Assembly: GCF_027941775.1 (NCBI RefSeq)
Contig: NZ_CP115917.1
Location: 2,089,001-2,153,000 of the forward strand
Length of the DNA: 64,000 bases
From: Tenacibaculum pacificus
GTDB taxonomy: Bacteria; Bacteroidota; Bacteroidia; Flavobacteriales; Flavobacteriaceae
Direction of reading: 5' to 3'
Positions 1-57,353 of the stretch are shown here, in pieces (positions within the stretch are counted from its first letter, which is position 1; each line of letters begins with the position of its first letter). Under the pieces are notes generated by a model. It was not told where the DNA came from, did not search any database, and saw nothing but the letters and a program-made list of their open reading frames with translations. The position numbers and the translations under genes were made by a program.

Positions 1-372
1 TTCTAAAATACCGTTTGCTATTAAAAATGAAGCGAGTCCATATATTAATCCACTAGCGCCAATATGATTTGCACTTCTAGCAAACATCCAAACAAGCATT
101 CCACCAACTAAAATTGTAAATATAATTACAGACAATGTTTTCTTCGGATAAAAATAATTAAGCACCGTTAATAAAACAATTAAAGGAAGTGTATTTGAAA
201 ATAAATGCCAAATATCAGCGTGTAAAAAAGGGGATGCAAAAACACCAATCAATCCATTAAAAGTACGTGGTATAATTCCAAATTTAGTAATCGGAATAAA
301 AAAACTTATGGCGTGAACAACATATAAAAAGACTATTAATTGAATAGTATATTTGTGTTTTTTAGAAATCAT
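1..372 (-). CDS. Rhomboid-family intramembrane serine protease, 3' part outside window
   Basis: Translating the minus strand from ATG 372-370 gives 124 residues open to the window edge. An HxxxxHxxxN motif (HADIWHLFSN) lies in the first third and the catalytic-serine motif GASG (HIGASGLIYG) near the visible end, both diagnostic of rhomboid proteases; the later catalytic His would be beyond base 1. Hydrophobic segments flank both motifs. Rhomboids cleave transmembrane helices inside the inner membrane; the substrate is unknown. The start overlaps the last 11 bases of the upstream K+ channel gene, so it is probably the promoter-distal gene of the PspA/DUF350/SpeE operon. Family assignment is firm; a role in that operon is inferred from overlap only. 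Confidence 0.85.
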   Translation of the reverse strand, partial: MISKKHKYTIQLIVFLYVVHAISFFIPITKFGIIPRTFNGLIGVFASPFLHADIWHLFSNTLPLIVLLTVLNYFYPKKTLSVIIFTILVGGMLVWMFARSANHIGASGLIYGLASFLIANGILE

Positions 373-1158
373 ACATTAATATTTTTTCCACAATGTGGAC
401 AATTACAATTTTTTCTTTAATTTTTTCTTCGGATTTTTTTAGCTGTTTTTCAGATTGAATTTTATCAATAAAAGCCGAACTAATAATTCCTGTAGGAAGC
501 GCAACAAAACCAATTCCGATTAACGCAATAACACCACCCAATAATTTACCCCAAGGCGTTACAGGATACACATCGCCATATCCAACGGTTGTTAATGTTG
601 CTACTGCCCACCAAAAAGCATCGCCAATGCTTGCAAATTTTTCTGGCTGGTCATCATGTTCTATATGATACATAAGCGTAGAGGATAAAACCATTAAAAC
701 AAAAGTTACAAAAATAGTAATAGACAACTCTGCTTTTGTTTCCTTAAATATATATTTTATGGTTTTTAAGGAGCTTGAATATCTACCTAATTTAAAAATT
801 CGTAACAACCTGAACAAACGAAGAATACGTATAATTCCTAAATCAAAAGGAAAAATTAATGGTAAATAAAAAGGAAGTATTGCTATTAAATCGATAATTC
901 CTGCAGTAGAAAAAGCAAAATTTAAGCGTTCTGTTTTATCTTCTTTTGTAATATCAGAAACCCAAATTCTGATAAAATATTCAATAGTAAATACTGTTAC
1001 CGAAAACAATTCAAAAAGATGAAAAAAAGCCCTATATTTTATATTTAATTAATGATAAGATTCAAGAATTAAAACAATAATATTCAACACAATAAGCGCA
1101 TAAATAAATTTGATAAAATACTTATTGTAAGTAATAAAATTACGTGCTTTTTTTTCAT
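362..1158 (-). pseudogene. Voltage-gated K+ channel, broken in its N-terminal part
   Basis: The intact part (362-1009) has S2/S3, an Arg-rich S4 (RILRLFRLLRIFKLGR) and the pore with selectivity filter TTVGYGD, so this is a six-helix Kv-type channel. The intact open frame lacks S1. Upstream DNA still codes in the same frame for an S1-like helix (KFIYALIVLNIIVLILESYH), then an in-frame TAA at 1049-1051, then LNIKYRAFFHLFEL leading into S2. The best start, ATG 1158-1156, overlaps the preceding stop as TAATG and reaches this frame only if the A8 run at about 1148-1155 had one more A. So there is one nonsense codon and one probable run deletion. A shorter protein from TTG 1009 is possible but would lack S1. 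Fifth-to-last step of the operon in position: it follows the DUF3592-like gene and overlaps the rhomboid gene by 11 bases. Confidence 0.8.
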
Positions 1159-1924
1159 TAAACCCAATTTTTCTTAATGTGTTTAGCAATTGACTTTGGT
1201 AAACTATTTACTACTAATGCTTTTTTAGGATTATTTTTATGATAAATAATCCATACTTTTTTAGTTCTAATTTTTTTAGAGTACCTAAACAAGTGGTTGC
1301 ATATTCTATTTCTTTATCCTCAGAAAAATAGGCGAATTTAATTCGATAACCACTTTCACCTTTTACATTATTAGAAAAATAGAGTTCTTTACCTAAATAT
1401 CTTCCTTCAGTAATAATACCATTACTTAAAATTGTAATTTCTTTTACTGTATTTCGAATATATAATCTAAAAATAAATAGGGTAATCAATGGAAATACCA
1501 AATAATAAAAAAATGGATTTCCGTTAGGTATGTAATCAAAATTTTTAATAACACTATACGTAGGTTTTTCAATGTTATAAATAACCTTTACTTCATCGCC
1601 TATTTTTAAATTAGCAATAGAATTATAAGACACCCATCTATGATATTCTTTATCAATTGTATATTCATATTCATAGGCTTTTACCATTGCCTGTAACTGG
1701 TCGTCTTCTATATCCGTAAAATAAACTTCTGTAATAGTTGCTTTTGTTTCGTTTGTATTAATATTCAAATAAAAACATTCTCTAAAATCAATATTTTTCA
1801 TATTAGATTTAAGCGATAAAAAACTAAAATAAAGAAGAATAAGTATAAAAATTGTAGAAAACCCTCTATAAAGCAATCGGATTTTTAAATTTACAGGAAG
1901 TGATTTTGTAATTTTTTTATGCAT
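1158..1924 (-). pseudogene. DUF3592-like membrane protein with a frameshift near its C-terminus
   Basis: ATG at 1924. One hydrophobic helix lies near residues 20-40 and another near 140-160, separated by an extracytoplasmic beta-rich part (AYEYEYTIDKEYHRW, then GDEVKVIYNIEKPTYSVI) of the kind found in DUF3592 proteins. The uninterrupted frame ends at 1214 with an atypical tail. Adding one A in the A7 run near 1269-1275 restores a plausible continuation (KKVWIIYHKNNPKKALVVNS) to a TAA at 1158-1160 that overlaps the channel ATG as TAATG. The reconstructed protein is 255 residues. The start overlaps the SpeD-like gene by 8 bases. Function is unknown; it sits in the membrane. The deletion may be a homopolymer sequencing error. 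Confidence 0.65.
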
Positions 1925-2222
1925 TTATATCATTAATTTTATCAATAAATAAATCTAGCTTTTCTTTACTACAACTGCTCAATTCAATATAACTTTTACC
2001 ACTTTCAGGAAACGTATGTATTGCTAAATGACTTTCACCTAACAACCAAAAACAGGTATATCCTTGCTCAGGAAAATGATGTTCATTAAAAAGAATAATT
2101 GTAAAACCAGCCTCTTTTAATAAATACTCATACCTTGTTTTTAGTGATTTTGGCACAGTACAACTATCCCAAATTTTATGACTGTATATATTTGCTTCTA
2201 TATGTTTGTAAGATGTATTCAT
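1917..2222 (-). CDS. S-adenosylmethionine decarboxylase-like protein (SpeD family)
   Basis: 101 residues from the ATG at 2222; a longer start at 2240 would run back into speE and is less likely. The core GESHLAIHTFPE matches the SpeD processing site: Glu63-Ser64 is where the family self-cleaves to form the pyruvoyl cofactor, His68 is the conserved His, and Cys84 (ELSSCS) matches the conserved catalytic Cys. SpeD makes decarboxylated S-adenosylmethionine, the aminopropyl donor for the neighbouring spermidine synthase. The gene begins 2 bases after the speE stop and overlaps the next gene by 8 bases, so it is translationally linked to both. Activity is inferred from motifs; short SpeD homologues in PspA/DUF350 clusters might use another substrate. 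Confidence 0.85.
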   Translation of the reverse strand: MNTSYKHIEANIYSHKIWDSCTVPKSLKTRYEYLLKEAGFTIILFNEHHFPEQGYTCFWLLGESHLAIHTFPESGKSYIELSSCSKEKLDLFIDKINDINA

Positions 2223-2224
2223 AA

Positions 2225-3783
2225 TTAATATAAATCCCAATTACCGTTTAAATAATATTTATAAAGAACGGGATTGTGTACTTTATTAACTTCAATACTA
2301 TCTTTAGAATTAAAAAATTCCTTTCCAAAAGATGTTATCAATTGCATTGCTTCGTTATTTATCCAATTGGTTTTAACATTTTTGAATTCAATTTTTTGCA
2401 ATTTATCTTTTAATTGATTCGAACTAATATTTTTATTTTTTGTTCCAAGTATCCAGCCCCATTCTCCCATCGATAATACTTGATTATGAAGTTTTACCGT
2501 ATTAAAATCAGCAGATCTTATTGTTTTATCAATACAATTATAGGCATTTGTTGCAAAATACGGACTTCCTGCTTGAGTGATAATTAATCCGTTAGGTCTT
2601 AATTTTCTGTTACAAAGTGAATAAAATTCATGTGAATATAATCTTCCTAATTCAATGTTTCTAGGGTCTGGTAAATCAATAATAATGATATCATAAAAAT
2701 CCGTTTTATTTTGCTCTAAATGAATATAAGCATCTTTGTTAAAAATGCTAAGTTTATCATTTTTCAGTGCTTTTTTTGTTGATTTTCTGTAATACAGAAT
2801 GATTTAATCCTAAATCGGTCATTTTCGGGTCTAAATCGACCATATCAATTTTTTCAACAGTCGGATATTTTAATATTTCACGAACAGCACAACCATCGCC
2901 ACCACCAAGAATTAATATTCGTTGCGGATTTGGATGTAATTGCATAATCGGATGCACCAACGGTTCAGTGATACATTTTTTCATCAATAGAACAAAATTG
3001 TAAGTTTCCGTTTAAGTATAACCAATGTTCATTTTTCCATTCGGTTACTACAATATTCTGATATTTTGTTTGTTCAGAATAAATAACTTTATCTTTATAT
3101 TTTTTTTGTTCTCCCCATTGAATAATCGGTTTTGTAAAAGAAATACCCGTAATTAAAAGTCCAAAAACAACGATTAAAACAGTTTTTAAACGAATAATTT
3201 TACGCTTATTTATCTTTTCTTTAAATCGATAAAAAACAATTAACGCAACTAAAAAATTAATGATTCCTAACACAAAAGGCGTGTATGCTAAACCTAATAT
3301 CGGCAGACCAATAAAAGCAAAAAATACACCTCCGATAAGACTTCCGTAATAATCTTTTTCTAAAATAGAGGAGATATTACTTTTTAAATCTTCATATTCT
3401 TTATTTATCCGAACAACTAACGGAATTTCTAACCCAATCAGTAAACCAATAAGCATACTTAAAGAATAAATAACAAATCCATAATAATCACTTACCGAAG
3501 CCAAGGTATAAACCAAAACTGAAGAAAATGCCACAATTAAAGAAAGTGATATTTCTAAGATTAAAAAATTTTGAATTAAGTTTTTTTTGATTAATTTACT
3601 CAATCGACTTCCTAAACCCGTACAAAAAAGCATCAGCGAAACAATCATCGTCCACTGAAAAATTGAATTTCCAATAAAATAAGTTGCTAAGGTAGATAAG
3701 GTATATTCGGCTACTATTCCTGCAAATCCTGTGGCAAAAATAGCAGCTTTTAATACAAAAGAATTCTGTTTTAAATACTCCAT
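2225..3783 (-). pseudogene. speE: Membrane-anchored spermidine synthase, two frameshifts
   Basis: The N-terminal half (3783 to about 2970) has about seven hydrophobic helices, followed by the synthase start WLYLNGNLQFCSIDE. The C-terminal half has the SAM-binding motif ILILGGGDG, VDLDP, the catalytic-region motif IIIDLPDPRN and the terminal GEWGW. Two one-base insertions break the frame: an extra base at about 2969 (CACTGAACCG where CATGAACCG or CACGAACCG gives YHEPLVHP) and an extra A in the A7 run 2771-2777. The span is 519 codons plus 2 bases; removing both gives 518 residues, normal for membrane-fused aminopropyltransferases. It would transfer aminopropyl groups from decarboxylated SAM (next gene) to putrescine or a related amine at the membrane. 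It overlaps the DUF350 gene by 13 bases. Confidence 0.85.
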
Positions 3784-4640
3784 GTAATTAATATCGCAGC
3801 ACCGATGTAAGCAAAAGCTTCCATTAAACCTGCACCAATATTTGGTTTTTCTTGATTGATAATTTCATCTGTAAGTTTTCTTCCTGGTAATAAAATTTTA
3901 TCAGCAAAAAGACGCATTATTGGCAATAATAAACAGCCTAATAATGTTTGTAAACTAATATCGATAAGCGTTGTTGTCCAGTCTAAAAATGGGTCTAAAA
4001 TTGCATTCATTGTGATAATTCCAATGGCAAGTATAGCGCCCGAAAAACTAACTCCAGCGGCAACATTGTCTTTTTCTATTTCATTATGAATATCATAACC
4101 CATCCAAGCAATAAACACTTTAGAACCGATTACAAGGACTATATTTCCTATAATCCAATAAATTAAAAAAGTTAAAATACCTGATATTAATGTTTCCGAT
4201 TCACCAATTAAAGCACCATATAAAATAAGTCCGTTTGCAATATAAATTGATGCTTCAATAACACCTGCACCTTCATTTTCATCAGTAATAATTTCTTTCT
4301 TTAAATCGAATTTATTTAAAATTACTTTATTGCTAATCCAAACAGATAAAAGCAATAACGCTATAGCAATTATTCCGTAGATAAAAATATGCTGAATATC
4401 AGTTATAAAACCATAACTTTCGCCAATAATAGCACCGCCAATAACAATAATTAAGGCAGTAAAATATCCGACATAAGAAATAATAAATGCAAAATTATCT
4501 TTTTCAACTAATTCATCTTGAATATTAATCTTCGGATTTAGCATTTTATACGCTATTTTTCCAAGGATAAAAATGATAAATCCACTTATAATATATCCTA
4601 ATGAATGATATATTTCTATAATATTTATATATTTTTCCAT
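3771..4640 (-). CDS. DUF350 membrane protein, two tandem DUF350 domains (YjfL-like)
   Basis: 289 residues with about eight hydrophobic helices in two related halves. Each half carries a basic/acidic loop followed by an N/A/GAGV...GA helix pair (NFAFIISYVGYF; NEGAGVIEASIYIANGLILYGA; NVAAGVSFSGAILAIGI; NIGAGLMEAFAYIGAAI), as in duplicated DUF350 proteins such as E. coli YjfL. No enzymatic residues are evident; the family is thought to be a membrane transporter or sensor component, not proven. The gene starts 18 bases after the lipoprotein gene and overlaps speE by 13 bases. Recurrent pairing of DUF350 with PspA, DUF4178 and spermidine synthase supports a shared membrane-stress role. Confidence 0.88.
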   Translation of the reverse strand: MEKYINIIEIYHSLGYIISGFIIFILGKIAYKMLNPKINIQDELVEKDNFAFIISYVGYFTALIIVIGGAIIGESYGFITDIQHIFIYGIIAIALLLLSVWISNKVILNKFDLKKEIITDENEGAGVIEASIYIANGLILYGALIGESETLISGILTFLIYWIIGNIVLVIGSKVFIAWMGYDIHNEIEKDNVAAGVSFSGAILAIGIITMNAILDPFLDWTTTLIDISLQTLLGCLLLPIMRLFADKILLPGRKLTDEIINQEKPNIGAGLMEAFAYIGAAILITWSI

Positions 4641-4658
4641 AATAATAATTTTGTAAGT

Positions 4659-5453
4659 TTATTTACCATATCCTCCACTTCTAGAGCGAGAAGAACTTGA
4701 ACTACTATATCTGTTGCTATTTCGTGTAGTTCGGCTAGAACTTCCATAACTTTTACTAGAACTATATCCTTTCGACCTTAAAGAAGTAGCACTTCGTTTT
4801 ACGTTGGTTCTTACCTTATCTTTAAATGATTGAGGTTTAGAATTCCAAGTACTACTAGTATTTCCTGTTGATGATGTTCCGTACGTATTATTTCTTCCGT
4901 AATAACTAGTTCTTCCTCGGTTATTAGTTCGATAATGGTCATAATCATTTCTTCCGTAACGATTAGACCCACCTAAAAGGCTACTCATAAAATGATACTG
5001 TCCATAAAATGCCCAAAAAGACGAACCGTTACTTTGTCTTTCCCAGCTTCCGTATTTTTGATTACCTACATAATTATTATAACCTGCAGGAGTCGATTTT
5101 TTATCTAAAACACCATTTTTCTTTGATAAAACGGTCATTCCTAAATCTTTTTGATGCTCTTCAAAAGTGATTGCAGAAACTTTTTTCCAATCAGTACGCT
5201 TTATATCAAAATCATCTTCAGTCGGTTTAGTTGTTTTATTATTTTTTTCAAGGATGATTTTATATTTATGAAAATAAGCATCGCTATCTTCTTTATAATC
5301 CATATCTGTTAAAATAACACTGTAATTTTCTACATCAATATAAGTAGTAATAATTTCATCTAAAGGAGATTTAAGGTACTTTTTTCGTTCTGCTCCACAA
5401 GAAACTATAAGTAGTAGTATGCTTGAAATAATTAATGTTTGGAATATTTTCAT
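4659..5453 (-). CDS. Lipoprotein with Ser/Arg/Gly-rich tail in the PspA/DUF350 operon
   Basis: 264 residues. The N-terminus has a short basic start, a hydrophobic core and lipobox LIVSC (Cys about residue 19), so it is a predicted lipoprotein. Residues about 25-140 form a charged globular part. After about residue 175 the protein is low complexity: Asn/Arg/Tyr/Gly repeats (RNDYDHYR, NNRGRTSYYGR) and then almost only Ser, Arg, Gly and Tyr to the end. By position and style it may replace the DUF1190 lipoprotein YjfM of enterobacterial clusters, but I cannot show homology. A basic, aromatic tail on a surface or periplasmic lipoprotein could bind polyanions; this is speculation. It sits between DUF4178 (36 bases upstream) and DUF350 (18 bases downstream). 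Confidence 0.75.
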   Translation of the reverse strand: MKIFQTLIISSILLLIVSCGAERKKYLKSPLDEIITTYIDVENYSVILTDMDYKEDSDAYFHKYKIILEKNNKTTKPTEDDFDIKRTDWKKVSAITFEEHQKDLGMTVLSKKNGVLDKKSTPAGYNNYVGNQKYGSWERQSNGSSFWAFYGQYHFMSSLLGGSNRYGRNDYDHYRTNNRGRTSYYGRNNTYGTSSTGNTSSTWNSKPQSFKDKVRTNVKRSATSLRSKGYSSSKSYGSSSRTTRNSNRYSSSSSSRSRSGGYGK

Positions 5454-5489
5454 TGTAATTAATTTGATACCAAATTTAGTATTTTAATA

Positions 5490-6041
5490 TTAATAAGTAT
5501 CTGCAACAGGTAATATATTAGAAACAGCAAGTTCACTAATAATAATCCCTTTAGTTACCTCAAATTCATCTTCTCCGTACTGTTCTATACAAAGTGTTTT
5601 TTGTTCATCTTCGTCTAAATAATCGTAAGAAATTAATTCTTCCCACTCTGAAGCATCTAATTCTTTACAAAAACCTGGTGATTTTTCATCTAAAAAATAA
5701 CGAGTTCCTTCAAAATCAATTTTTTTAGGTGGTTTTTGATTTTCATCAATATAATCACAAACCGTTTCGCCTAATTTTCTTAGTTTTATTTTTTCTGATA
5801 AAGTAACTACTAAACCTCCATCATCTTCAAGATGTAAAAACTTTTCCGTAGTTCCATTTTTGATAACAAATTCACGAGTAAAATAATCATCTCCCCAATC
5901 ATATTCAAACAAAGCTGTAACTGTCCAAGTTTCTATGGCATATTCAAAAATATATCCTTTTCCTAAATCTCTAATCGTAATATTAGTCGGATCAAAATGT
6001 CTTTCTGGTTCTTTTTTCTTTAAAAAATCAAATATTCCCAT
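5490..6041 (-). CDS. DUF4178 protein (YjfK/DUF2491-like position)
   Basis: 183 residues, no signal peptide, acidic. The pattern FDPTNITIRDLGKGYIFEYAIETW, then FEYDWGD and EKFLHLEDDGG, matches the beta-rich DUF4178 fold, which commonly accompanies PspA, DUF350 and spermidine synthase genes. The C-terminal third is strongly acidic (SYDYLDEDEQ, YGEDEFEV). It is probably cytoplasmic and may contact PspA or the membrane proteins, but no biochemical role is known. It follows PspA after a 164-base gap that holds a strong hairpin, so its level may differ from that of PspA, and precedes the lipoprotein gene by 36 bases. Confidence 0.8.
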   Translation of the reverse strand: MGIFDFLKKKEPERHFDPTNITIRDLGKGYIFEYAIETWTVTALFEYDWGDDYFTREFVIKNGTTEKFLHLEDDGGLVVTLSEKIKLRKLGETVCDYIDENQKPPKKIDFEGTRYFLDEKSPGFCKELDASEWEELISYDYLDEDEQKTLCIEQYGEDEFEVTKGIIISELAVSNILPVADTY

Positions 6042-6131
6042 GTTGTATTATTTTTTATAAAACTAAATAAATTTTGTTAAGTAACAACTTAATGATATTC
6101 ATTAAATTATTTTAATGTAACCTTTTTTAAC

Positions 6132-6168
6132 AAATAAGCTCTTCTTTATTAAAAGAAGAGCTTATTTT
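6132..6168. terminator. Hairpin between PspA and DUF4178 genes
   Basis: A near-perfect inverted repeat (AATAAGCTCTTCTTT / AAAGAAGAGCTTATT with a few loop bases) lies in the 164-base gap after the pspA-like stop. It has T-rich flanks on both sides. It may be a partial terminator or an RNA-processing hairpin that lowers expression of the distal operon relative to the first two genes. Whether it stops transcription cannot be told from sequence. Confidence 0.65.
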
Positions 6169-6205
6169 ATCAAATGAAATTATTGATAATTACTTTTAAA
6201 TAATT

Positions 6206-6904
6206 TTACAATCCCATTTGTTTTTTTAACTCTTCAAGATTGCTTGCTGCACTTGTTTTTTTAGAACCTAAAGCTTTATCAAGTTCTTCATCGATACTTT
6301 TCGATTCGTTAGCAATATCTCCATAAGCTTCGGCTAAAGCTTCTTCTTCGGATACTTTTTCTTTCATTTTTTCTAGCATATTTACAGTACTAGAACTATC
6401 GATTGCCGCCATTTGTTTGTTTAAATTCTTGGTTGCTTTCGAAACTTTTACACGAGCTTTAAGGGTTTTTAATTCATTTTCCCATTTACTGATGTTATTT
6501 CTCAAACTATTAACATTGGTTTCTAATTGAGAAACCGATTTCGAAAAATTAGTAACCTCAATAGTACAACGATTAACGTGTTCTGTATTTTCTTCTTTTT
6601 TAACTAAAGCTTCCGTTGCTAAACGATCTGCATTTTCAGCAGTAAGCTCTCCTTTTCCAGCTTTTTGTAAAATCAACATTGCCTTATTTTGATAATCTTT
6701 GGCTTTTGTTTCGAACTGTGTTTTATCATTTGTAGAACGAATTAACATGGCTTTTACCTGCGCAAGACCTTCCATCGCTTCTGTTAAGTCATTTTTAATG
6801 TCCTTAATACCCTGCTCTGTCATTTTGATAGGGTTTTCCATTTTGTCAATTGCAGAGTTTGCTTCTGCTTTTCCTACATTAAATAATCTTCTAAAGATAT
6901 TCAT
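6206..6904 (-). CDS. PspA/IM30 family protein (YjfJ-like)
   Basis: 232 residues, almost entirely alpha-helical with heptad-like coiled coil, no signal peptide. The start MNIFRRLFNVGKAEANSAIDKMENP is the amphipathic helix plus turn typical of PspA/IM30, followed by MTEQGIKDIKNDL and long charged helices to EELKKQMGL. PspA/IM30 proteins are ESCRT-III relatives that assemble on the inner membrane and protect it under stress. The neighbours (YjfI-like 42 bases upstream; DUF4178, DUF350 downstream) match the YjfJ branch rather than classical pspABC. Start chosen at ATG 6904 because it gives the canonical amphipathic N-terminus. Confidence 0.92.
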   Translation of the reverse strand: MNIFRRLFNVGKAEANSAIDKMENPIKMTEQGIKDIKNDLTEAMEGLAQVKAMLIRSTNDKTQFETKAKDYQNKAMLILQKAGKGELTAENADRLATEALVKKEENTEHVNRCTIEVTNFSKSVSQLETNVNSLRNNISKWENELKTLKARVKVSKATKNLNKQMAAIDSSSTVNMLEKMKEKVSEEEALAEAYGDIANESKSIDEELDKALGSKKTSAASNLEELKKQMGL

Positions 6905-6946
6905 AATATGTTTTTTTAGTGTGTGTGTGTTAATTTGTATTTTTAA

Positions 6947-7342
6947 TTATGCTTTAGAAAACTGAATGATGTTTTCTGAATATTCACTTAATAATAAACT
7001 CAAAGAATTTATAGAACCTTCCAATTCGTTTAAATCAAGGTTTTCAATTTGTAGCGTATCTCTAAAAATCACTTTCGTACCTGTTTCATCTAAAACAAAA
7101 GCACCATGAACGATGTCTCTATTTTTTTGTAATAATTGTTGAAAAATATTTTCATCAGGATTTGTGATTTTGAAGATATATTGTTCAATAATTAAAACTG
7201 GATTTGCAATTCCAATAATCAAATTATCAATACCTTCATCTTGATTTTGAATCATCAAAATACCTTCTTTTTTATCTTCATGAGTAATATTGTAATTTAA
7301 CTCAAGTAAGTAATTTTTAATAATGTTAAATTGTTTTTTCAT
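6947..7342 (-). CDS. YjfI/DUF2170-like small protein, first gene of the PspA operon
   Basis: 131 residues, cytoplasmic, acidic. The pattern (small alpha/beta domain, LLQKNRDIVHGAFVLDE, RDTLQIENLDLNELEGSI, C-terminal helix) resembles the DUF2170/YjfI family and, more loosely, type III secretion chaperone-like folds. These genes regularly sit directly before the yjfJ-type pspA gene, here 42 bases apart. A role as a PspA-binding or regulatory partner is inferred from context. It is the promoter-proximal gene of the minus-strand operon; the 178 bases upstream are shared with the divergent regulator. Confidence 0.7.
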   Translation of the reverse strand: MKKQFNIIKNYLLELNYNITHEDKKEGILMIQNQDEGIDNLIIGIANPVLIIEQYIFKITNPDENIFQQLLQKNRDIVHGAFVLDETGTKVIFRDTLQIENLDLNELEGSINSLSLLLSEYSENIIQFSKA

Positions 7343-7520: not shown

Positions 7521-8264
7521 ATGTCGTTTTTCGGAAAAAATATTAAAAAAATAAGAAGCGTAAAAGGACTTAGCCAACAAGCTTTTGCAGACATATTTTC
7601 TTTAAAAAGAGGAACTCTAGGTGCTTACGAAGAAAAAAGAAGCGAACCAAAAATTGACACCATCATAAAAGTTGCTAATTACTTTAGCATATCGATAGAT
7701 GATATTCTAACAAAAAACATTACAGTTAATCAATTATTAAGCTTTAACGAAATCATTACTACAGATATCAATCAAGTTGTAAAAGCTAGTTTTACTGATA
7801 TTCCTTTTGTAAACTCATTAAACAGTAAAATGTTTATCGATGATTTTAAAACCACAGAAAGCTATCAATCCTTACCTCTTATTAGAATGCCCGTAACAGC
7901 AAATGCTCCATTATTAGCATTTACAGTACAGGATTTATTTATGGTTTCTAATGAGGAAGGTTTATTTCCTGGTGATGTTGTAGTTGGTGAAAGCACTATT
8001 GCTGATGATTTAATTAAAGGAGATGTAGTAACTGTATTGGCAAATGATACGTTATTTATCAGACGTTATAACACTACAGATACAGGTTATCATTTATTAG
8101 CCGATCATATAAATATCGCTCCGATAAATATCCCTTATGGAACTGACATCCATTTTTGGAAAGTTTCTTATGTATTTTTAAAACAATATCCAAAATTCAA
8201 TTCAAAATTAGAAAATCAATTAAACCAATTAAATACCGAACTAAAACGGTTGTCATTAAAATAA
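7521..8264 (+). CDS. XRE-family regulator with S24/LexA-like C-terminal domain
   Basis: 247 residues. An HTH domain fills residues 5-65 (IKKIRSVKGLSQQAFADIFSLKRGTLGAYEEKRSEP). The C-terminal part (about 120-230) has the beta-rich S24 pattern (GLFPGDVVVGES, GDVVTVLANDTLFIRRY), but I do not see the usual GxSMxP serine motif, and Arg replaces the expected Lys in FIRRY. It is therefore probably a non-cleaving dimerisation or sensing domain, like many Bacteroidota XRE/S24 proteins. It is divergent from the PspA operon and is the only regulator nearby, so control of that operon is a reasonable guess. A hairpin terminator follows the stop. Confidence 0.85.
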   Translation: MSFFGKNIKKIRSVKGLSQQAFADIFSLKRGTLGAYEEKRSEPKIDTIIKVANYFSISIDDILTKNITVNQLLSFNEIITTDINQVVKASFTDIPFVNSLNSKMFIDDFKTTESYQSLPLIRMPVTANAPLLAFTVQDLFMVSNEEGLFPGDVVVGESTIADDLIKGDVVTVLANDTLFIRRYNTTDTGYHLLADHINIAPINIPYGTDIHFWKVSYVFLKQYPKFNSKLENQLNQLNTELKRLSLK

Positions 8265-11217: not shown

Positions 11218-14200
11218 TTATCTATTAATGTATAACCATCCTACTTTTGGTTTTGAACCATCTCCTAAATCGATAACATAATAATAAGTTCCTGGTGGTA
11301 ATTTCTCATCAACACTAATGGTTGATCGTCCATTTGATATCCCTGTAAAGGCTACACTTTCATTATTATATCCTGAAGCTTTATAAACGGTATTTCCCCA
11401 TCTATTAAAAATCTCTACAGTATTCTTGGCATATTCTGGCTTGTCAATACATGAGATGAAAAAAGCATCATTATCTCCATCGTTATCTGGTGTCATAATA
11501 TTATATGGTGTACCACGTGGATTTGTATCTGTATTTACTAAAATAGTAACTGTTGCTATCTTACAGTTGATAGGTAATGCACCATTTTCACAAATTTGAT
11601 ATTCTAAAACATGAGTTCCTCCTTCTACATCTAAACCTATACTTATAGTTCCATCTGAATTAAAAGTAAACCCATCATTATTAGTTCCATTTGGATCTGG
11701 TAACAATGATACTTCTCCTACTCCTGTTCCTAAAGTAACTGGTATTCCATTTAATATATCATTAATTGTTACTGATGGAGTATCATTTCCTATCGTTATA
11801 GGTGTTGAAGTATAATTATCATCAATAGCAGTTATAGTATTAGGTAACTCAATTTTTACATCAATATCTGCAGTATCAGTTCCTCCGTTTCCATCACTAA
11901 TAGTATATGGGAAAGTAATTTCTGTTCCTGTTCCATCAGGTTGGATATCTAATGTTCCATTTGCTAATAATGTTACCGTTCCTCCTGTTACTGATATTGC
12001 TGTTCCTACAACTGGAATAGTTCCATTGATATCTGTAATTGTTAAAGGATCATTATCTACATCAGCATCAACGCCATTATCGTTATCTGCTAAAACATCT
12101 ACATTGACTAAAGCATCAATCGTTGTACTTGCTGTATCATCTTGTGCTACTGGTGCTGTATTTCCGATTGATACATCAACATTCGCTGTATCTGTTCCGC
12201 CATTTCCATCACTAATAGTATATGGGAAAGTAATTGCAGCTCCTGTTCCATCAGGTTGGATATCTAATGTTCCATTTGCTAATAATGTTACCGTTCCTCC
12301 TGTTACTGATATTGCTGTTCCTACAACTGGAGTAGTTCCATTGATATCTGTAATTGTTAAAGGATCATTATCTGCATCAGCATCAACGCCATTTCCGTTA
12401 GATGCTAAAACATCTAAATTTACTAAGGCATCAACTGTTGTACTTGCTGTATCATCTTGTGCTACTGGTGCTGTATTTCCGATTGATACATCAACATTCG
12501 CTGTATCTGTTCCGCCATTTCCATCACTAATAGTATATGGGAAAGTAATTGCAGCTCCTGTTCCATCAGGTTGGATATCTAATGTTCCATTTGCTAATAA
12601 TGTTACCGTTCCTCCTGTTACTGATATTGCTGTTCCTACAACTGGAGTAGTTCCATTGATATCTGTAATTGTTAAAGGATCATTGTCTGCATCAGCATCA
12701 ACGCCATTTCCGTTAGATGCTAAAACATCTAAATTTACTAAGGCATCAACTGTTGTACTTGCTGTATCATCTTGTGCTACTGGTGCTGTATTTCCGATTG
12801 ATACATCAACATTCGCTGTATCTGTTCCGCCATTTCCATCACTAATAGTATATGGAAAAGTAATTGCAGCTCCTGTTCCATCAGGTTGGATATCTAATGT
12901 TCCATTTGCTAATAATGTTACCGTTCCTCCTGTTACTGATATTGCTGTTCCTACAACTGGAGTAGTTCCATTGATATCTGTAATTGTTAAAGGATCATTG
13001 TCTGCATCAGCATCAACGCCATTTCCGTTAGATGCTAAAACATCTAAATTTACTAAGGCATCAACTGTTGTACTTGCTGTATCATCTTGTGCTACTGGTG
13101 CTGTATTTCCGATTGATACATCAACATTCGCTGTATCTGTTCCGCCATTTCCATCACTAATAGTATATGGGAAAGTAATTGCAGCTCCTGTTCCATCAGG
13201 TTGGATATCTAATGTTCCATTTGCTAATAATGTTACCGTTCCTCCTGTTACTGATATTGCTGTTCCTACAACTGGAGTAGTTCCATTGATATCTGTAATT
13301 GTTAAAGGATCATTGTCTGCATCAACATCAACGCCATTTCCGTTAGATGCTAAAACATCTAAATTTACTAAGGCATCAACTGTTGTACTTGCTGTATCAT
13401 CTTGTGCTACTGGTGCTGTATTTCCGATTGATACATCAACATTCGCTGTATCTGTCCCGCCATTTCCATCACTAATAGTATATGGGAAAGTAATTGCAGC
13501 TCCTGTTCCATCAGGTTGGATATCTAATGTTCCATTTGCTAATAATGTTACCGTTCCTCCTGTTACTGATATTGCTGTTCCTACAACTGGAGTAGTTCCA
13601 TTGATATCTGTAATTGTTAAAGGATCATTGTCTGCATCAACATCAACGCCATTTCCGTTAGATGCTAAAACATCTAAATTTACTAAGGCATCAACTGTTG
13701 TACTTGCTGTATCATCTTGTGCTACTGGTGCTGTATTTCCGATTGATACATCAACATTCGCTGTATCTGTCCCGCCATTTCCATCACTAATAGTATATGG
13801 GAAAGTAATTGCAGCTCCTGTTCCATCAGGTTGGATATCTAATGTTCCATTTGCTAATAATGTTACCGTTCCTCCTGTTACTGATATTGCTGTTCCTACA
13901 ACTGGAGTAGTTCCATTGATATCTGTAATTGTTAAAGGATCATTGTCTGCATCAGCATCAACGCCATTTCCGTTAGATGCTAAAACATCTAAATTTACTA
14001 AGGCATCAACTGTTGTACTTGCTGTATCATCTTGTGCTACTGGTGCTGTATTTCCGATTGATACATCAACATTCGCTGTATCTGTTCCGCCATTTCCATC
14101 ACTAATAGTATATGGGAAAGTAATTGCAGCTCCTGTTCCATCAGGTTGGATATCTAATGTTCCATTTGCTAATAATGTTACCGTTCCTCCTGTTACTGAT

Positions 14201-17200
14201 ATTGCTGTTCCTACAACTGGAGTAGTTCCATTGATATCTGTAATTGTTAAAGGATCATTATCTGCATCAGCATCAACGCCATTTCCGTTAGATGCTAAAA
14301 CATCTAAATTTACTAAAGCATCAACTGTTGTACTTACTGTATCATCTTGTGCTACTGGTGCTGTATTTCCGATTGATACATCAACATTCGCTGTATCTGT
14401 TCCGCCATTTCCATCACTAATAGTATATGGGAAAGTAATTGCAGCTCCTGTTCCATCAGGTTGGATATCTAATGTTCCATTTGCTAATAATGTTACCGTT
14501 CCTCCTGTTACTGATATTGCTGTTCCTACAACTGGAGTAGTTCCATTGATATCTGTAATTGTTAAAGGATCATTATCTGCATCAGCATCAACGCCATTTC
14601 CGTTAGATGCTAAAACATCTAAATTGACTAAAGCATCAACTGTTGTACTTGCTGTATCATCTTGTGCTACTGGTGCTGTATTTCCGATTGATACATCAAC
14701 ATTCGCTGTATCTGTTCCGCCATTTCCATCACTAATAGTATATGGGAAAGTAATTGCAGCTCCTGTTCCATCAGGTTGGATATCTAATGTTCCATTTGCT
14801 AATAATGTTACCGTTCCTCCTGTTACTGATATTGCTGTTCCTACAACTGGAGTAGTTCCATTGATATCTGTAATTGTTAAAGGATCATTATCTGCATCAA
14901 CATCAACGCCATTTCCGTTAGATGCTAAAACATCTAAATTTACTAAGGCATCAACTGTTGTACTTGCTGTATCATCTTGTGCTACTGGTGCTGTATTTCC
15001 GATTGATACATCAACATTCGCTGTATCTGTTCCGCCATTTCCATCACTAATAGTATATGGGAAAGTAATTGCAGCTCCTGTTCCATCAGGTTGGATATCT
15101 AATGTTCCATTTGCTAATAATGTTACCGTTCCTCCTGTTACTGATATTGCTGTTCCTACAACTGGAGTAGTTCCATTGATATCTGTAATTGTTAAAGGAT
15201 CATTATCTGCATCAGCATCAACGCCATTTCCGTTAGATGCTAAAACATCTAAATTTACTAAAGCATCAACTGTTGTACTTGCTGTATCATCTTGTGCTAC
15301 TGGTGCTGTATTTCCGATTGATACATCAACATTCGCTGTATCTGTCCCGCCATTTCCATCACTAATAGTATATGGGAAAGTAATTGCAGCTCCTGTTCCA
15401 TCAGGTTGGATATCTAATGTTCCATTTGCTAATAATGTTACCGTTCCTCCTGTTACTGATATTGCTGTTCCTACAACTGGAGTAGTTCCATTGATATCTG
15501 TAATTGTTAAAGGATCATTGTCTGCATCAGCATCAACGCCATTTCCGTTAGATGCTAAAACATCTAAATTTACTAAGGCATCAACTGTTGTACTTGCTGT
15601 ATCATCTTGTGCTACTGGTGCTGTATTTCCGATTGATACATCAACATTCGCTGTATCTGTCCCGCCATTTCCATCACTAATAGTATATGGGAAAGTAATT
15701 GCAGCTCCTGTTCCATCAGGTTGGATATCTAATGTTCCATTTGCTAATAATGTTACCGTTCCTCCTGTTACTGATATTGCTGTTCCTACAACTGGAGTAG
15801 TTCCATTGATATCTGTAATTGTTAAAGGATCATTGTCTGCATCAGCATCAACGCCATTTCCGTTAGATGCTAAAACATCTAAATTTACTAAGGCATCAAC
15901 TGTTGTACTTGCTGTATCATCTTGTGCTACTGGTGCTGTATTTCCGATTGATACATCAACATTCGCTGTATCTGTTCCGCCATTTCCATCACTAATAGTA
16001 TATGGGAAAGTAATTGCAGCTCCTGTTCCATCAGGTTGGATATCTAATGTTCCATTTGCTAATAATGTTACCGTTCCTCCTGTTACTGATATTGCTGTTC
16101 CTACAACTGGAGTAGTTCCATTGATATCTGTAATTGTTAAAGGATCATTGTCTGCATCAGCATCAACGCCATTTCCGTTAGATGCTAAAACATCTAAATT
16201 TACTAAGGCATCAACTGTTGTACTTGCTGTATCATCTTGTGCTACTGGTGCTGTATTTCCGATTGATACATCAACATTCGCTGTATCTGTTCCGCCATTT
16301 CCATCACTAATAGTATATGGGAAAGTAATTGCAGCTCCTGTTCCATCAGGTTGGATATCTAATGTTCCATTTGCTAATAATGTTACCGTTCCTCCTGTTA
16401 CTGATATTGCTGTTCCTACAACTGGAGTAGTTCCATTGATATCTGTAATTGTTAAAGGATCATTATCTGCATCAGCATCAACGCCATTTCCGTTAGATGC
16501 TAAAACATCTAAATTTACTAAAGCATCAACTGTTGTACTTACTGTATCATCTTGTGCTACTGGTGCTGTATTTCCGATTGATACATCAACATTCGCTGTA
16601 TCTGTTCCGCCATTTCCATCACTAATAGTATATGGGAAAGTAATTGCAGCTCCTGTTCCATCAGGTTGGATATCTAATGTTCCATTTGCTAATAATGTTA
16701 CCGTTCCTCCTGTTACTGATATTGCTGTTCCTACAACTGGAGTAGTTCCATTGATATCTGTAATTGTTAAAGGATCATTATCTGCATCAGCATCAACGCC
16801 ATTTCCGTTAGATGCTAAAACATCTAAATTGACTAAAGCATCAACTGTTGTACTTGCTGTATCATCTTGTGCTACTGGTGCTGTATTTCCGATTGATACA
16901 TCAACATTCGCTGTATCTGTTCCGCCATTTCCATCACTAATAGTATATGGGAAAGTAATTGCAGCTCCTGTTCCATCAGGTTGGATATCTAATGTTCCAT
17001 TTGCTAATAATGTTACCGTTCCTCCTGTTACTGATATTGCTGTTCCTACAACTGGAGTAGTTCCATTGATATCTGTAATTGTTAAAGGATCATTATCTGC
17101 ATCAACATCAACGCCATTTCCGTTAGATGCTAAAACATCTAAATTTACTAAGGCATCAACTGTTGTACTTGCTGTATCATCTTGTGCTACTGGTGCTGTA

Positions 17201-20200
17201 TTTCCGATTGATACATCAACATTCGCTGTATCTGTTCCGCCATTTCCATCACTAATAGTATATGGGAAAGTAATTGCAGCTCCTGTTCCATCAGGTTGGA
17301 TATCTAATGTTCCATTTGCTAATAATGTTACCGTTCCTCCTGTTACTGATATTGCTGTTCCTACAACTGGAGTAGTTCCATTGATATCTGTAATTGTTAA
17401 AGGATCATTATCTGCATCAGCATCAACGCCATTTCCGTTAGATGCTAAAACATCTAAATTTACTAAAGCATCAACTGTTGTACTTGCTGTATCATCTTGT
17501 GCTACTGGTGCTGTATTTCCGATTGATACATCAACATTCGCTGTATCTGTCCCGCCATTTCCATCACTAATAGTATATGGGAAAGTAATTGCAGCTCCTG
17601 TTCCATCAGGTTGGATATCTAATGTTCCATTTGCTAATAATGTTACCGTTCCTCCTGTTACTGATATTGCTGTTCCTACAACTGGAGTAGTTCCATTGAT
17701 ATCTGTAATTGTTAAAGGATCATTGTCTGCATCAGCATCAACGCCATTTCCGTTAGATGCTAAAACATCTAAATTTACTAAGGCATCAACTGTTGTACTT
17801 GCTGTATCATCTTGTGCTACTGGTGCTGTATTTCCGATTGATACATCAACATTCGCTGTATCTGTTCCGCCATTTCCATCACTAATAGTATATGGGAAAG
17901 TAATTGCAGCTCCTGTTCCATCAGGTTGGATATCTAATGTTCCATTTGCTAATAATGTTACCGTTCCTCCTGTTACTGATATTGCTGTTCCTACAACTGG
18001 AGTAGTTCCATTGATATCTGTAATTGTTAAAGGATCATTATCTGCATCAGCATCAACGCCATTTCCGTTAGATGCTAAAACATCTAAATTTACTAAGGCA
18101 TCAACTGTTGTACTTGCTGTATCATCTTGTGCTACTGGTGGACAGTTTGGTTGCGTATCAATAGTTATTGATAAGGCTGGAGAAGTACATCCAGCTGCAT
18201 TCGTCTCTGTTAAACTATACGTACCAGATGCTAAACTTGAAAAACTTGTTCCCGTTTGAGCTGCTACTACTGGCGCTGTTCCTGTTAATGTATATGTTGA
18301 TGTTCCTACTGGACTCGTTACACTTACACTTCCTGTTGCTACAGCACATGTTGGATCTACATCCGTTGCTGCTGGTGCACTTGGTGTTGCTGGTTGCGCA
18401 TCTATAGTAATTGTAGTTGCTGCTGAGATACATCCAGCTGCATTCGTCTCTGTTAAACTATACGTACCAGCTGCTAAAGTCGTAAAACTTGTACCTGTTT
18501 GAGCTACTACTACTGGCGCTGTTCCTGTTAATGTATATGTTGATGTTCCTACTGGACTCGTTACACTTACACTTCCTGTTGCTACAGCACATGTTGGATC
18601 TACATCCGTTGCTGCTGGTGCACTTGGTGTTGCTGGTTGCGCATCTATAGTAATTGTAGTTGCTGCTGAGATACATCCAGCTGCATTCGTCTCTGTTAAA
18701 CTATACGTACCAGATGCTAAACTTGAAAAACTTGTTCCCGTTTGAGCTGCTACTACTGGCGCTGTTCCTGTTAATGTATATGTTGATGTTCCTACTGGAC
18801 TCGTTACACTTACACTTCCTGTTGCTACAGCACATGTTGGATCTACATCCGTTACTGCTGGTACACTTGGTGTTGCTGGTTGCGCATCTATAGTAATTGT
18901 AGTTGCTGCTGAGATACATCCAGCTGCATTCGTCTCTGTTAAACTATACGTACCAGATGCTAAACTTGAAAAACTTGTTCCCGTTTGAGCTGCTACTACT
19001 GGCGCTGTTCCTGTTAATGTATATGTTGATGTTCCTACTGGACTCGTTACACTTACACTTCCTGTTGCTACAGCACATGTTGGATCTACATCCGTTGCTG
19101 CTGGTACACTTGGTGTTGCTGGTTGCGCATCTATAGTAATTGTAGTTGCTGCTGAGATACATCCAGCTGCATTCGTCTCTGTTAAACTATACGTACCAGA
19201 TGCTAAACTTGAAAAACTTGTTCCCGTTTGAGCTGCTACTACTGGCGCTGTTCCTGTTAATGTATATGTTGATGTTCCTACTGGACTCGTTACACTTACA
19301 CTTCCTGTTGCTACAGCACATGTTGGATCTACATCCGTTGCTGCTGGTGCACTTGGTGTTATATTTACTGTTACTGTTGATTTATCTGTTAATTCAACAT
19401 TACAAGCTCCATCAACCGCATATAAATTATAAACAGTTGTTGAGGCTGGTGTTACATTAAAAGTTAAATCAGCTCCTGCTCCTACTTGAGATGCTCCGAC
19501 ATTACTATCATTACTGTCTAAACGTAATTGATATGTAACACCTACTTGAGCACTTGTTAATGTTATAGTTCCTGTAGCTGTTGGGCAAATAGAATCATCA
19601 CTAACCGCTAAACTATCATCAGGGGAAGTACATACCGAACAAGCTGGTGCTTGTACACCTCCATCATAAGGAAAAGTACTAACATCTGCAGGTGTTGTAA
19701 GAATACCAGAATCTGGTGCTGTTTCTAAAGCATCATATAAACCATTATCTCCTACTGTTCCTGTTAAATTAGCAACGTCAATTCCTGCTTCAATAGAGTC
19801 ACTACAGCTATCTCCATCTGAATTTGTATTTGTATCATTTGTACATGAATCGTCTATCTCTCTTAAAGAAAAACCATCTACGACTATTACAGTTTCATTA
19901 TTTAACTGAAATCTATATTTAACTGTTGTTGATGTAGCTTCAAATACAATACGGTATTTTTTCCAATGTGGATCCCATTCTTCTGATACATCTGGTGTTG
20001 TAGCAGGGAAAGGATATATCGTAGTATCAAGAGGTGTTTCATATAAAACATTTGCACCTGTACCAGACCCACCATCAACAAAACCATAAACTATTTGTGT
20101 AGGATCATATGAGTATGCTGCTGGGTGATTTCTATAACTAGGTAAAGAACCCATTTCAAATTCCATTTGATAAGTCTTACCAATTGTTAGAGTCGTTATT

Positions 20201-24743: not shown

Positions 24744-27700
24744 TTATCTGTTAATGTATAACCATCCTACTTTTGGTTTTGAACCATCACCTAAATTTAT
24801 TATATAATAATAAGTACCTGGTGGTAATTTCTCATCAACACTAATTGTTAAACTTCCATTTGAAATTCCTTTAAAGGATACATCTTTATTATTATATCCT
24901 GAAGCTTGGTAAACAGTATTACCCCATCTATTGAAAATCTCTACAGTATTATTTGCATATTCTGGTTTATCAATACACGAAATGTAAAAAGAATCATTAT
25001 CTCCATCATTATCAGGAGTTATAATATTATATGGAATACCACATGGATTTGTAGGATTATTAACAAAAACAGTTACAGTTGCTGTATCACAATTAGTTGG
25101 TATTTCTCCATTTTCACATATTTGATACTCTAAATCATATATTCCTGATATCATATTTAAATCTACAGTAATAGTTCCATCAGAATTAAAAGTAAATCCA
25201 GGTTCATTGTTTGAATCAGCTATTAAAGTTGCCTCTCCTAATTCAGTACCTAAAATAACAGGTAATCCATTTAATGTATCATTTGTTGTTACATCTATAT
25301 TAGTGTCAATAATATTGATATCTGTATAATCATCATCCATTGCTTCAATTGGATCTATAACAGAATTAACTGTAATTAGAATATTAGCATCATCAATATT
25401 AACTCCATCTGTTACAATATAATTAATTACTGGTAGTACTCCATTATAATTTAATACAGGTTCAAAAAGCAATACACCATCTGTATTTAATGTTATTTCT
25501 CCAATTCCATTTAATAATGTAACTGTATCTAACGGTAATACATCTGAAATTCCATCTCCATCAATATCTACTGTTGCACTAGCAACTGTTAACAAATCAT
25601 TTTCTGTATCACTATCTATTCCATTTCCATTATCTTCAGTTATAATATTACCTGTTATATCATAATCTTCATCTCCAGTAAAATTATCATCTGTAGCTAT
25701 TGTAATACATAATGGTTGTGTATCTACTACAATATTTGAACTTGCTGTTGATGTACATCCTGTCCCATCTGTATCTGTTACTGTAAATGTATACGTTCCT
25801 TCATTTGCTGTTACTAATCCTGTTGATGAAATATTTACTACCGATGGAGTAAATACATAAGTATCACCTGAATCATAACTTGTAATTTGAAAACTTCCTG
25901 TAGCTACTGTACACATTGGCTGTGTTACTGCTCCTACAACTGGTGCTAATGGAGTAGCTGGTTGTGTATTTACTACAATATTTGAACTTGCTGTTGATGT
26001 ACATCCTGTCCCATCTGTATCTGTTACTGTAAATGTATACGTTCCTTCATTTGCTATTACTAATCCTGTTGATGAAATATTTACTACTGATGGAGTAAAT
26101 ACATAAGTATCACCTGAATCATAACTTGTAATTTGAAAACTTCCTGTAGCTACTGTACACATTGGCTGTGTTACTGCTCCTACAACTGGTGCTAATGGAG
26201 TAGCTGGTTGTGTATTTACTACAATATTTGAACTTGCTGTTGATGTACATCCTGTCCCATCTGTATCTGTTACTGTAAATGTATACGTTCCTTCATTTGC
26301 TGTTACTAATCCTGTTGATGAAATATTTACTACTGATGGAGTAAATACATAAGTATCATCTGAATCATAACTTGTAATTTGAAAACTTCCTGTAACTACT
26401 GTACACGTTGGCTGTGTTACTACTCCTGCTATTGGTGCTAATGGAGTAACTGGTTGTGTATCTACTACAATATTTGAGCTTACTGTTGATGTACATCCTG
26501 TTCCATCTGTATCTGTTACTGTAAATGTATACGTTCCTTCATTTGCTGTTACTAATCCTGTTGATGAAATATTTACTACCGATGGAGTAAATACATAAGT
26601 ATCACCTGAATCATAACCTGTAATTTGAAAATTTCCTGTAACTACAGTACACGTTGGCTGTGTTACTAATCCTACTATTGGTGCTGATGGAGTAGCTGGT
26701 TGTATATCTACTACAATATTTGAACTTGCTAATGAAGTACATCCTGTTCCATCTGTATCTGTTACTGTAAATGTATACGTTCCTTCATTTGCTGTTACTA
26801 ATCCTGTTGATGAAATATTTACTACCGATGGAGTAAATACATAAGTATCACCTGAATCATAACCTGTAATTTGAAAACTTCCTGTAGCTACTGTACATGT
26901 TGGCTGTGTTACTAATCCTACAACTGGTGCTGATGGTAAAGTATTAACTGTTACCGTTGCTTTATCTACTAACTCTACATTACAAGTTCCATCAACTGCA
27001 TACACATTATATGTTGTTGTATTTAATGGAGTTACATTAAAAATTAAATCAGCTCCTGTTCCTAATTGAGAAGCTCCTATATTAGTATCATTACTATCTA
27101 AACGTAATTGATATACTACTCCTACTTGAGTATTTGTTAAGGTTATTACACCTGTTTCTGTAGGACAAATTACATCATCACTAACAGTTAAATTATCATT
27201 TGGTATAGTACAACAAATAGGTGATTGAACAGTACTATCATAAGGATATGTATTAATATCTGCTAATTTTATAAGAATACCTGAATCAGGAAAAGTTTCT
27301 AAGCTATCATATATACCATTAGTTCCTACTGGTCCTGTTAAATTTACTAAATCAACTCCTGCTTCTGTAGAATCATTACAACCATCATTATCTGAATCAA
27401 GATCTAAATAATCAGGTATGGTATCATTATCTGTATCCCTAATAATACAATCAGGAGCTGTTGTTTCGCCTGAAGTTTCTATTTTAAATACAAAGCCACC
27501 TAAAGAAGCTCCATTTGTTAAACGAATTTCGACAACCTGACCTGGAGAAACTGGTGAATTAATAACTTTAGATAAAGGTAAACTAGGTGAAAATTCATCA
27601 ATAGAATCTACTAAAACGCCATCAATAAATAACTCTGCAAAATCATCAAAATATCCATTAGCTTCTCCTATTTGTATATTTCCATTATTCTCTATTGTAC

Positions 27701-45893: not shown

Positions 45894-45966
45894 GCGAAAG
45901 TAGCTCAGTTGGTAGAGCGTCAGCCTTCCAAGCTGAATGTCGCCAGTTCGAACCTGGTCTTTCGCT
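45894..45966 (+). tRNA. tRNA-Gly (anticodon TCC), copy 1
   Basis: 73 bases with acceptor GCGAAAG pairing CTTTCGC, D-arm TAGCTCAGTTGGTAGAGC, anticodon loop CTTCCAA (TCC) and T-arm GTTCGAAC. CCA is not encoded. First of three identical copies. Confidence 0.97.
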
Positions 45967-46010
45967 CTAAAGTCTTTAAAAGATAGACTCTAAAATCTCT
46001 ATTTACCAAT

Positions 46011-46083: not shown

Positions 46084-46126
46084 CACAGTCTTTAAAAGAT
46101 AGACTTTAAAATCTTTATTTACCAAT

Positions 46127-46358: not shown

Positions 46359-46421
46359 GACTTATTTACTAAATTTAGTCATCAATTTAAAAGCCTGTTC
46401 ATATCTACAGAATATATCAGC

Positions 46422-57348: not shown

Positions 57349-57353
57349 AAAAA

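Follow-up and report, generated by a model that had tools for sequence, protein, structure and literature searches.

The 64,000-nucleotide stretch analysed here, referred to as the window (G000:C1:2089001-2153000), comes from a single-contig genome of 2.79 Mb and carries at its start a locus that combines PspA, a membrane-fused aminopropyltransferase (SpeE), an S-adenosylmethionine (AdoMet) decarboxylase (SpeD) and a K+ channel. Over positions 1-7342 its DNA is 93.4% identical to Tenacibaculum dicentrarchi TDCHD05 (L052) and 90% identical to two T. finnmarkense genomes (L050, L051), and by sequence the source genome is a Tenacibaculum near these two fish-associated species. Profile scans of proteins from the window and from a comparison genome, G018, confirmed the gene families, strand and order given in an earlier reading of this DNA (the original prediction). 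The features of the locus are as follows.

7521..8264, plus strand: XRE-type regulator, divergent, with a weakly S24-like C-terminal half (the G018 copy, 81% identical, matches HTH_19 at E 2.3e-11 and Peptidase_S24 at 14.4 bits, below the cut-off)
6947..7342, minus strand: CesT/Tir-like chaperone (PF22550, CesT_Tir_1; YjfI superfamily), E 7.3e-57
6206..6904, minus strand: PspA of the YjfJ type (PF04012, PspA_IM30, E 1.7e-41), the genome's sole copy over the cut-off
6110..6175, minus strand: terminator- or attenuator-like hairpin between the units, -22.7 kcal/mol, z -6.8
5490..6041, minus strand: DUF4178 protein, 90% identical to the G018 copy, which scores PF13785 at E 9.2e-18
4659..5453, minus strand: predicted lipoprotein with an S/R/G/Y-rich tail and a lipobox-like SCG, judged by eye
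3771..4640, minus strand: DUF350 membrane protein with two repeats and eight long helices, E 4e-50 in two stretches
2225..3783, minus strand: SpeE, an aminopropyltransferase fused to a membrane domain and spread over three frames in this assembly; the G018 counterpart is intact at 518 aa
1917..2240, minus strand: SpeD, a short class-1b-like AdoMet decarboxylase (PF02675, E 1.2e-13)
1158..1924, minus strand: DUF3592-like protein with a C-terminal frame change in this assembly (24.9 bits against a cut-off of 25.3; the intact G018 copy scores 31.4)
362..1207, minus strand: Kv-like K+ channel with six transmembrane helices (6TM) and a TVGYGD filter, E 1.3e-31; in this assembly its frame is interrupted by a stop codon and its tail is altered
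1..372, minus strand: N-terminal part of a rhomboid protease whose gene runs beyond the window to genome position 2088833 (Pfam match on the G018 copy)

The original prediction had taken these genes for a single operon running from the YjfI-like gene to the rhomboid gene, which was not confirmed, given the hairpin between pspA and the DUF4178 gene and the separation of the two halves in other genomes, where they adjoin in some relatives only. None of 200 shuffled sequences was as stable as the hairpin, and counterparts lie at the same place in all four relatives that were folded (L050 z -4.7, L051 -5.6, L053 -2.8, L054 -5.2; L052 was left out); a consensus terminator scan did not list the window's hairpin. 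Judged by this arrangement, the locus is two predicted units: unit A, the CesT-PspA pair, divergent from the XRE regulator, and unit B, DUF4178-lipoprotein-DUF350-SpeE-SpeD-DUF3592-channel-rhomboid. A counterpart of the XRE regulator stands beside CesT-PspA in 12 of 12 annotated loci that carry this dyad (L003, L017 and L036-L045; L032 is cut and outside the count), and its S24-like half showed no Ser/Lys pair by eye. Of the gene overlaps claimed earlier, those of 13 (3771-3783), 8 (1917-1924) and 11 bases (362-372) were recovered and the single-base one was not reproduced; SpeE and SpeD overlap by 16 bases with a TTG start or lie 2 bases apart with an ATG start. Between L050 (T. finnmarkense) and L052 (T. 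dicentrarchi), synonymous divergence is 0.14-0.27 in DUF350, SpeE, SpeD, DUF3592 and Kv and 0.47-0.58 in CesT, PspA, DUF4178 and rhomboid, a pattern that resembles an exchange of the whole enzyme-channel block at once.

Linkage of a K+ channel to SpeE and SpeD extends well beyond this strain. A single search, with four aligned fused SpeE proteins as the query, yielded 45 loci, mostly from Flavobacteriaceae, which were annotated with purpose-built hidden Markov models. Members of Tenacibaculum, Polaribacter, Flavicella, Wenyingzhuangia and Aquimarina show the order DUF4178-lipoprotein-DUF350-SpeE-SpeD-channel, with gaps mostly below 30 bases, and a Kordia metagenome-assembled genome has the same order in a locus cut before the lipoprotein. 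Five loci end at SpeE (L075, L079, L089, L093, L094), leaving 40 to be scored. SpeD adjoins SpeE or shares its unit in 35 of these, and 26 have a channel beside the enzyme pair: seven Kv-like and 17 RCK channels with two transmembrane helices (2TM) follow SpeD, and two Kv-like channels lie between SpeD and DUF4178 (L082 and L084, both metagenome-assembled genomes). Channel and SpeD are separated by short gaps or overlap. A Kv gene 1.5 kb upstream in L091, which groups with unlinked Kv channels, was left uncounted. The earlier proposal that the channel is a partner of the SpeE/SpeD pair is supported.

Co-occurrence was also compared with chance at the level of genomes. In a class-wide scan of 396 genomes, the SpeE alignment matched in 65, of which 40 had the fused form according to the match table and the fetched loci. 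Channels (PF07885, 121 genes) and SpeD (PF02675) were then sought in these 40 and in five genus genomes, added by hand, in which the locus had been seen before. Gene positions were partly rounded, and where a genome had more than one fused locus (G144, G348, G294 and G465) the copy nearer SpeD was used, which in G144 is partial and lies where a contig ends. A channel lies within 5 kb of fused SpeE in 10/45 genomes (6/40 without the added five), compared with 0.28 expected at random placement when ancestry is ignored. The original prediction had asked whether channel and enzymes co-occur more often than by chance, and on this count they do; chance placement of the channel near SpeE is rejected for the family as a whole. 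SpeD lies within 5 kb of fused SpeE in 32/45 genomes, including 10/10 of those with a nearby channel (10/32 SpeD-near versus 0/13 SpeD-far genomes, Fisher p 0.04). All ten belong to the SpeE clade of the window, which has 17 genomes; the other fused group, which mostly carries only a short DUF350-like protein, has none (0/28).

Two architectures fill the channel position. The intact channel of the window's relatives (L017/L050) is a 6TM Ion_trans protein with an Arg-rich S4 helix, a TVGYGD filter and a Cys-containing tail. The Aquimarina/Tenacibaculum type combines a 2TM pore with TrkA_N, and the one member scanned had MthK as its best match in the PDB. In an 85-row SpeE tree built by a quick method, with support from the Shimodaira-Hasegawa-like approximate likelihood ratio test (SH-aLRT) only, the Kv clade (97) sits inside a clade (97) with two RCK groups (99 and 90), and two further RCK rows fall outside. 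Because the Kv clade lies among RCK groups on this tree, the channel architecture is read as having changed at least once while the slot persisted. A 25-row Kv tree places linked channels of the window type (six rows, 100/99) and linked channels in the other gene order (five rows, 99/95) apart from ten unlinked ones (100/100); two unlinked and two linked rows have unsure places, and single and multiple origins of linked Kv channels are not separable there. Because many relatives keep a K+ channel at this position though its type changes, the channel and the SpeE/SpeD enzymes probably work together. Since either of two architectures often follows the enzymes, the loci seem to require K+ flow or membrane potential in common and not one particular channel protein. 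A 435-aa channel akin to the linked RCK channels (340 bits) also occurs away from fused SpeE (L153, G365:C1:2969025).

The enzyme genes themselves carry conserved features. Intact in L017 and L050, SpeE is fused to an N-terminal membrane domain; the L050 copy scores 586 bits against NF002956 (cut-off 472), and a structural model shows the complete spermidine-synthase fold of an aminopropyltransferase. Ahead of the enzyme part the model shows helices at 7-36, 40-64, 69-97, 101-129, 137-186 and 193-229, six helices in all, one of which is 50 residues long and could span twice. SpeE motifs are kept, and purifying selection on the module is seen by sequence. The window's SpeD scores 51.7 bits against PF02675 (cut-off 25). 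In the G018 copy, Ser, His and Cys residues that we take to be the pyruvoyl-type catalytic residues align with AdoMet decarboxylase (AdoMetDC) from T. maritima (1tlu/1vr7), and the same pattern is present in 43/59 SpeD-like open reading frames (ORFs), including 35/35 SpeD-bearing loci of the 45-locus scan. In the short-DUF350 group, 13 SpeD-like ORFs (L110, L111, L113-L115, L117-L119, L122-L126) have Ser at the expected catalytic Cys, judged by eye. Fused SpeE is followed in three loci (L082 11530-14095, L110 10603-13276, L118 6467-9200) by a protein that resembles an oxidoreductase and has a twin-arginine-like start, identified by FAD-type Pfam matches in L082 and by position and start in L110 and L118; a membrane-like protein of 353-356 aa also follows fused SpeE in this set and has no Pfam match in L082. 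The oxidoreductase is possibly an exported polyamine oxidase.

The core is known. CesT, PspA, DUF4178, lipoprotein, DUF350 and fused SpeE correspond, by family content, to the second major group of Ravi et al. 2024 (PMC11237479), described there as CesT/Tir-PspA, 7TM-SpeE, 8TM DUF350, lipoprotein and DUF4178. The window has the same families, including the fused SpeE (seven helices by that paper's count) and a two-repeat DUF350; the CesT/Tir-PspA dyad is adjacent, and DUF4178 and an eight-helix DUF350 are present (AlphaFold2 model of the L050 copy, mean predicted local distance difference test score 89). As to the Ctha_1186-type lipoprotein of group 2, the window's lipoprotein has a lipobox-like Cys and matched no Pfam family over the cut-off, and no Ctha_1186 model turned up in the libraries searched. 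The ribbon-helix-helix regulator that may end group 2 loci in PMC11237479 had no Pfam match among the scanned proteins, and a divergent XRE regulator is found instead. The window differs from group 2 in having SpeD and a K+ channel after SpeE: the group 2 passages of PMC11237479 name neither, and its main text contains no instance of "rhomboid" and one of "channel", for another group. As described there, a K+ channel goes with the ATP-grasp group and AdoMetDC with dyad-free variants.

The published CesT-PspA/fused-SpeE layout (PMC11237479) also fits better than the E. coli yjf layout proposed in the original prediction, which was not borne out. That type, the third group of PMC11237479, comprises CesT-PspA, ATP-grasp, a K+ channel, 4TM DUF350, DUF1190 and DUF2491, and shares PspA, a CesT-like protein and DUF350 with our loci; it likewise has a K+ channel, one that senses intracellular ligands and resembles the relatives' RCK channels. 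The Pseudomonas aeruginosa bac operon (PMC10948618) likewise places a YjfI-family chaperone, BacA, whose solved structure is chaperone-like, beside a PspA-like protein, as in the window; unlike the window, it is described as having no spermidine synthase in or around it. The enzyme of the window differs from that of the yjf type in being an aminopropyltransferase, and glutathionylspermidine-synthetase-like ATP-grasp, DUF1190 and DUF2491 had no Pfam match among the scanned proteins.

Li et al. 2019 reportedly described AdoMetDC with an MFS-spermidine synthase fusion and DUF350, a likeness in SpeD, fused SpeE and DUF350, and is said to have raised the recurrence of polyamine-type enzymes beside PspA as well. 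The SpeE-SpeD-channel link may already be in print in that paper, which PMC11237479 cites. Neither the SpeE-SpeD-channel set nor a join of groups 1 and 2 was found in the literature searched, which covered passages from the main text of PMC11237479. Relative to the published core, the apparent additions here are the K+ channel of two types after SpeE-SpeD and the joining of groups 1 and 2. In PMC11237479, PspA systems are proposed to keep watch on polyamine concentration or aminopropylation, and the paper raises why polyamine-type enzymes recur beside PspA, a question that the Flavobacteriaceae loci narrow.

The module co-occurs with PspA. PspA is present in 16/17 genomes of the window's SpeE clade, in 10/28 of the other fused group and in 4/35 genomes without fused SpeE, the last being a convenience set, not a random one, in which 15/35 were judged match-free from absence in the match list. 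The proposed association of the module with PspA is upheld by the first and last of these counts. Within the genus, SpeD of the window type (E < 1e-20) occurs in 6/36 genomes, all six among the ten with window-type PspA.

In G002, G003 and G068, a larger locus runs from CesT-PspA through a YuaF-like protein, a flotillin-like protein and an AAA+ ATPase of ~1600 aa to unit B with an RCK channel. The ATPase counterpart in L055 scores DUF3686 and AAA; the flotillin and YuaF labels rest on the PMC11237479 description, a band-7 match on a neighbouring ORF and position, both proteins being without a Pfam match. Such a block, with CesT-PspA, flotillin, a YqiJ/YuaF-like protein and an AAA+ ATPase, is the first group of PMC11237479, and by gene content the G002/G003/G068 locus joins published groups 1 and 2. 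The AAA+ ATPase lies upstream of unit B in 14/45 loci. In seven loci of the genus (L039-L045), unit A is joined to the flotillin/AAA+ block, and the 1-2 kb retrieved past the ATPase hold no gene of unit B; one of these genomes, G035, carries unit B elsewhere. The window lineage (L050-L054) and L017 differ in having no match to the block. The larger joint locus offers non-pathogenic organisms for testing, with each block naturally present or absent.

Our preferred interpretation, to which we give a little less than an even chance, is that the two adjacent units would form one membrane-surface stress module, in which an anchored aminopropyltransferase modifies a putative local acceptor in a manner coupled to K+ flux. 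Unit A, with the XRE regulator counted in, would provide an ESCRT-III-like PspA coat and its CesT-like chaperone partner. In unit B, SpeD would act as a dedicated AdoMet decarboxylase supplying decarboxylated AdoMet to SpeE, which is predicted to be tied to the inner membrane by its helical domain; DUF350, lipoprotein and DUF4178 usually accompany this pair, and a K+ channel often does. We infer that SpeE transfers aminopropyl groups to a local acceptor distinct from the bulk polyamines; phosphatidylethanolamine, ornithine lipid or another lipid that carries an amine may serve. A damaged membrane would in this way gain positive charge, and the channel would reset membrane potential through K+ flow. 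Gene order, kept catalytic residues, purifying selection, PspA co-occurrence and the recurrent association with two K+ channel architectures are the sequence-level support for such a module. Like the original prediction, we infer that it senses membrane damage.

MprF suggests a more specific version, which we regard as improbable: SpeE and SpeD may aminopropylate phosphatidylethanolamine or ornithine lipid of the inner membrane, the membrane domain may move the cationic product across, PspA-CesT (in relatives also flotillin/AAA+) may place the system at sites of damage, and the K+ channel may couple surface charge to membrane potential. If true, this would be a polyamine-based membrane-charge response.

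Several observations weigh against the stress-module interpretation. The L050 SpeD scores 46.6 bits against TIGR03330, below the NCBIfam cut-off of 75.65, and comparison assigned no fold to the SpeE transmembrane domain or to DUF350. Fourteen of the 40 scorable loci have no channel (L064, L069, L072, L076-L078, L080, L081, L083, L085-L087, L091, L092), where L085 and L086 were scored with less than 1.3 kb of upstream sequence, too short to exclude a channel placed in the alternative order. The channel is also absent in 7/17 genomes of the module's own clade and is hence not obligatory. PspA falls inside the fetched stretch of only some loci, the SpeE-alignment query favours close relatives, and shared ancestry does not enter the chance figure. 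Finally, SpeE and the channel are broken in the window itself.

This last point sustains the strongest alternative, that unit B is no working system in this genome and consists of decaying pseudogenes, to which we assign an appreciable probability, somewhat below that of the module. The locus does not hold the ten intact genes originally described: speE is spread over three reading frames, a stop codon near 1050 interrupts the channel frame, whose tail is altered, and DUF3592 shifts frame near its end, while all three are in single frames at the same place in G018 and L050-L052. Decay is favoured by the clustering of the breaks, since five of 29 syntenic genes compared with G018 are broken, four of the seven in 2085738-2092783 (ccoNO, channel, DUF3592, speE) and 1/22 elsewhere (Fisher p 0.007), and by at least one lesion being a stop codon inside one frame with no length change. 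On the other side, ccoNO, which encodes a cytochrome cbb3 oxidase fusion, is split with a stop in the same stretch (G000:C1:2085738-2087934; L003 4732-6934), though it is one 732-aa frame in G018 and intact in L050-L052; the broken pieces retain 87-100% amino-acid identity to G018; and genome completeness is 95.5%, compared with 98-100% in 12 other single-contig genus genomes. Because of these three points we lean slightly towards local sequence error rather than recent real decay. With enzyme and channel genes frame-broken, the module may be dead or mis-sequenced in this assembly.

Unit B might otherwise be an ordinary spermidine pathway that is membrane-tethered by chance and happens to lie near pspA. 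The kept Ser/His/Cys of SpeD, the SpeE motifs, the full spermidine-synthase fold and the naming of NF002956 as polyamine aminopropyltransferase all agree with this. We nevertheless find it unlikely, as SpeD is restricted to the 6/36 genus genomes noted above, versus a deoxyhypusine-synthase-family gene in 15/17, and membrane partners are regularly present. Li et al. 2019 reportedly found no complementation.

Alternatively, the channel, DUF3592 and rhomboid genes could be passengers of a growing cassette with no common function. The idea suits DUF3592, found in 3/45 loci (L050-L052), and rhomboid, found in 8/45 (L050-L056, L064) within one SpeE clade; both are local additions, and their place in the joint system originally proposed is not supported. 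The rhomboid protein, complete at 179 aa in L003 (a G000 region that reaches past the window start), keeps a GASG Ser and a His, presumably the catalytic residues, in 8/8 relatives carrying the gene. For the channel, the 14 loci without one fit the passenger view, and two architectures in one slot, two gene orders, the above-chance excess and the short gaps or overlaps with SpeD speak against it; overall we hold it to be improbable.

Least probable of all is the original idea that a polyamine made at the membrane plugs and gates the pore of the neighbouring channel: enzyme-channel linkage in two gene orders speaks for it, whereas two gating types (voltage sensor and RCK ligand domain) in one slot argue against its generality, the Kv inner helix lacks by eye an acidic cavity residue such as the acidic site for polyamine block in Kir channels, and a blocker would be available in any case should homospermidine be the main polyamine in this organism, as it is in Flavobacterium. 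The block of eukaryotic inward rectifiers by cytoplasmic polyamines (PMC7243266, PMC4145359) was counted in its favour.

Elsewhere in the window, two giant minus-strand ORFs at 11218-21408 (3396 aa) and 32789-45055 (4088 aa) consist of near-identical tandem repeats, with ~20 copies of 315 bp at 99% and 30 copies of 300 bp at 97%. A third large ORF of 1539 aa lies at 24744-29363, and each of the three adjoins a 304-aa ORF; we take the repeat ORFs and their 304-aa neighbours to resemble gliding-adhesin/PorP-SprF sets. Three equal-scoring tRNA genes form a 116-bp tandem array at 45894-46199, and three Flavo-1 RNAs (RF01705) exceed the gathering score at 46272-46361, 52485-52577 and 57260-57351.

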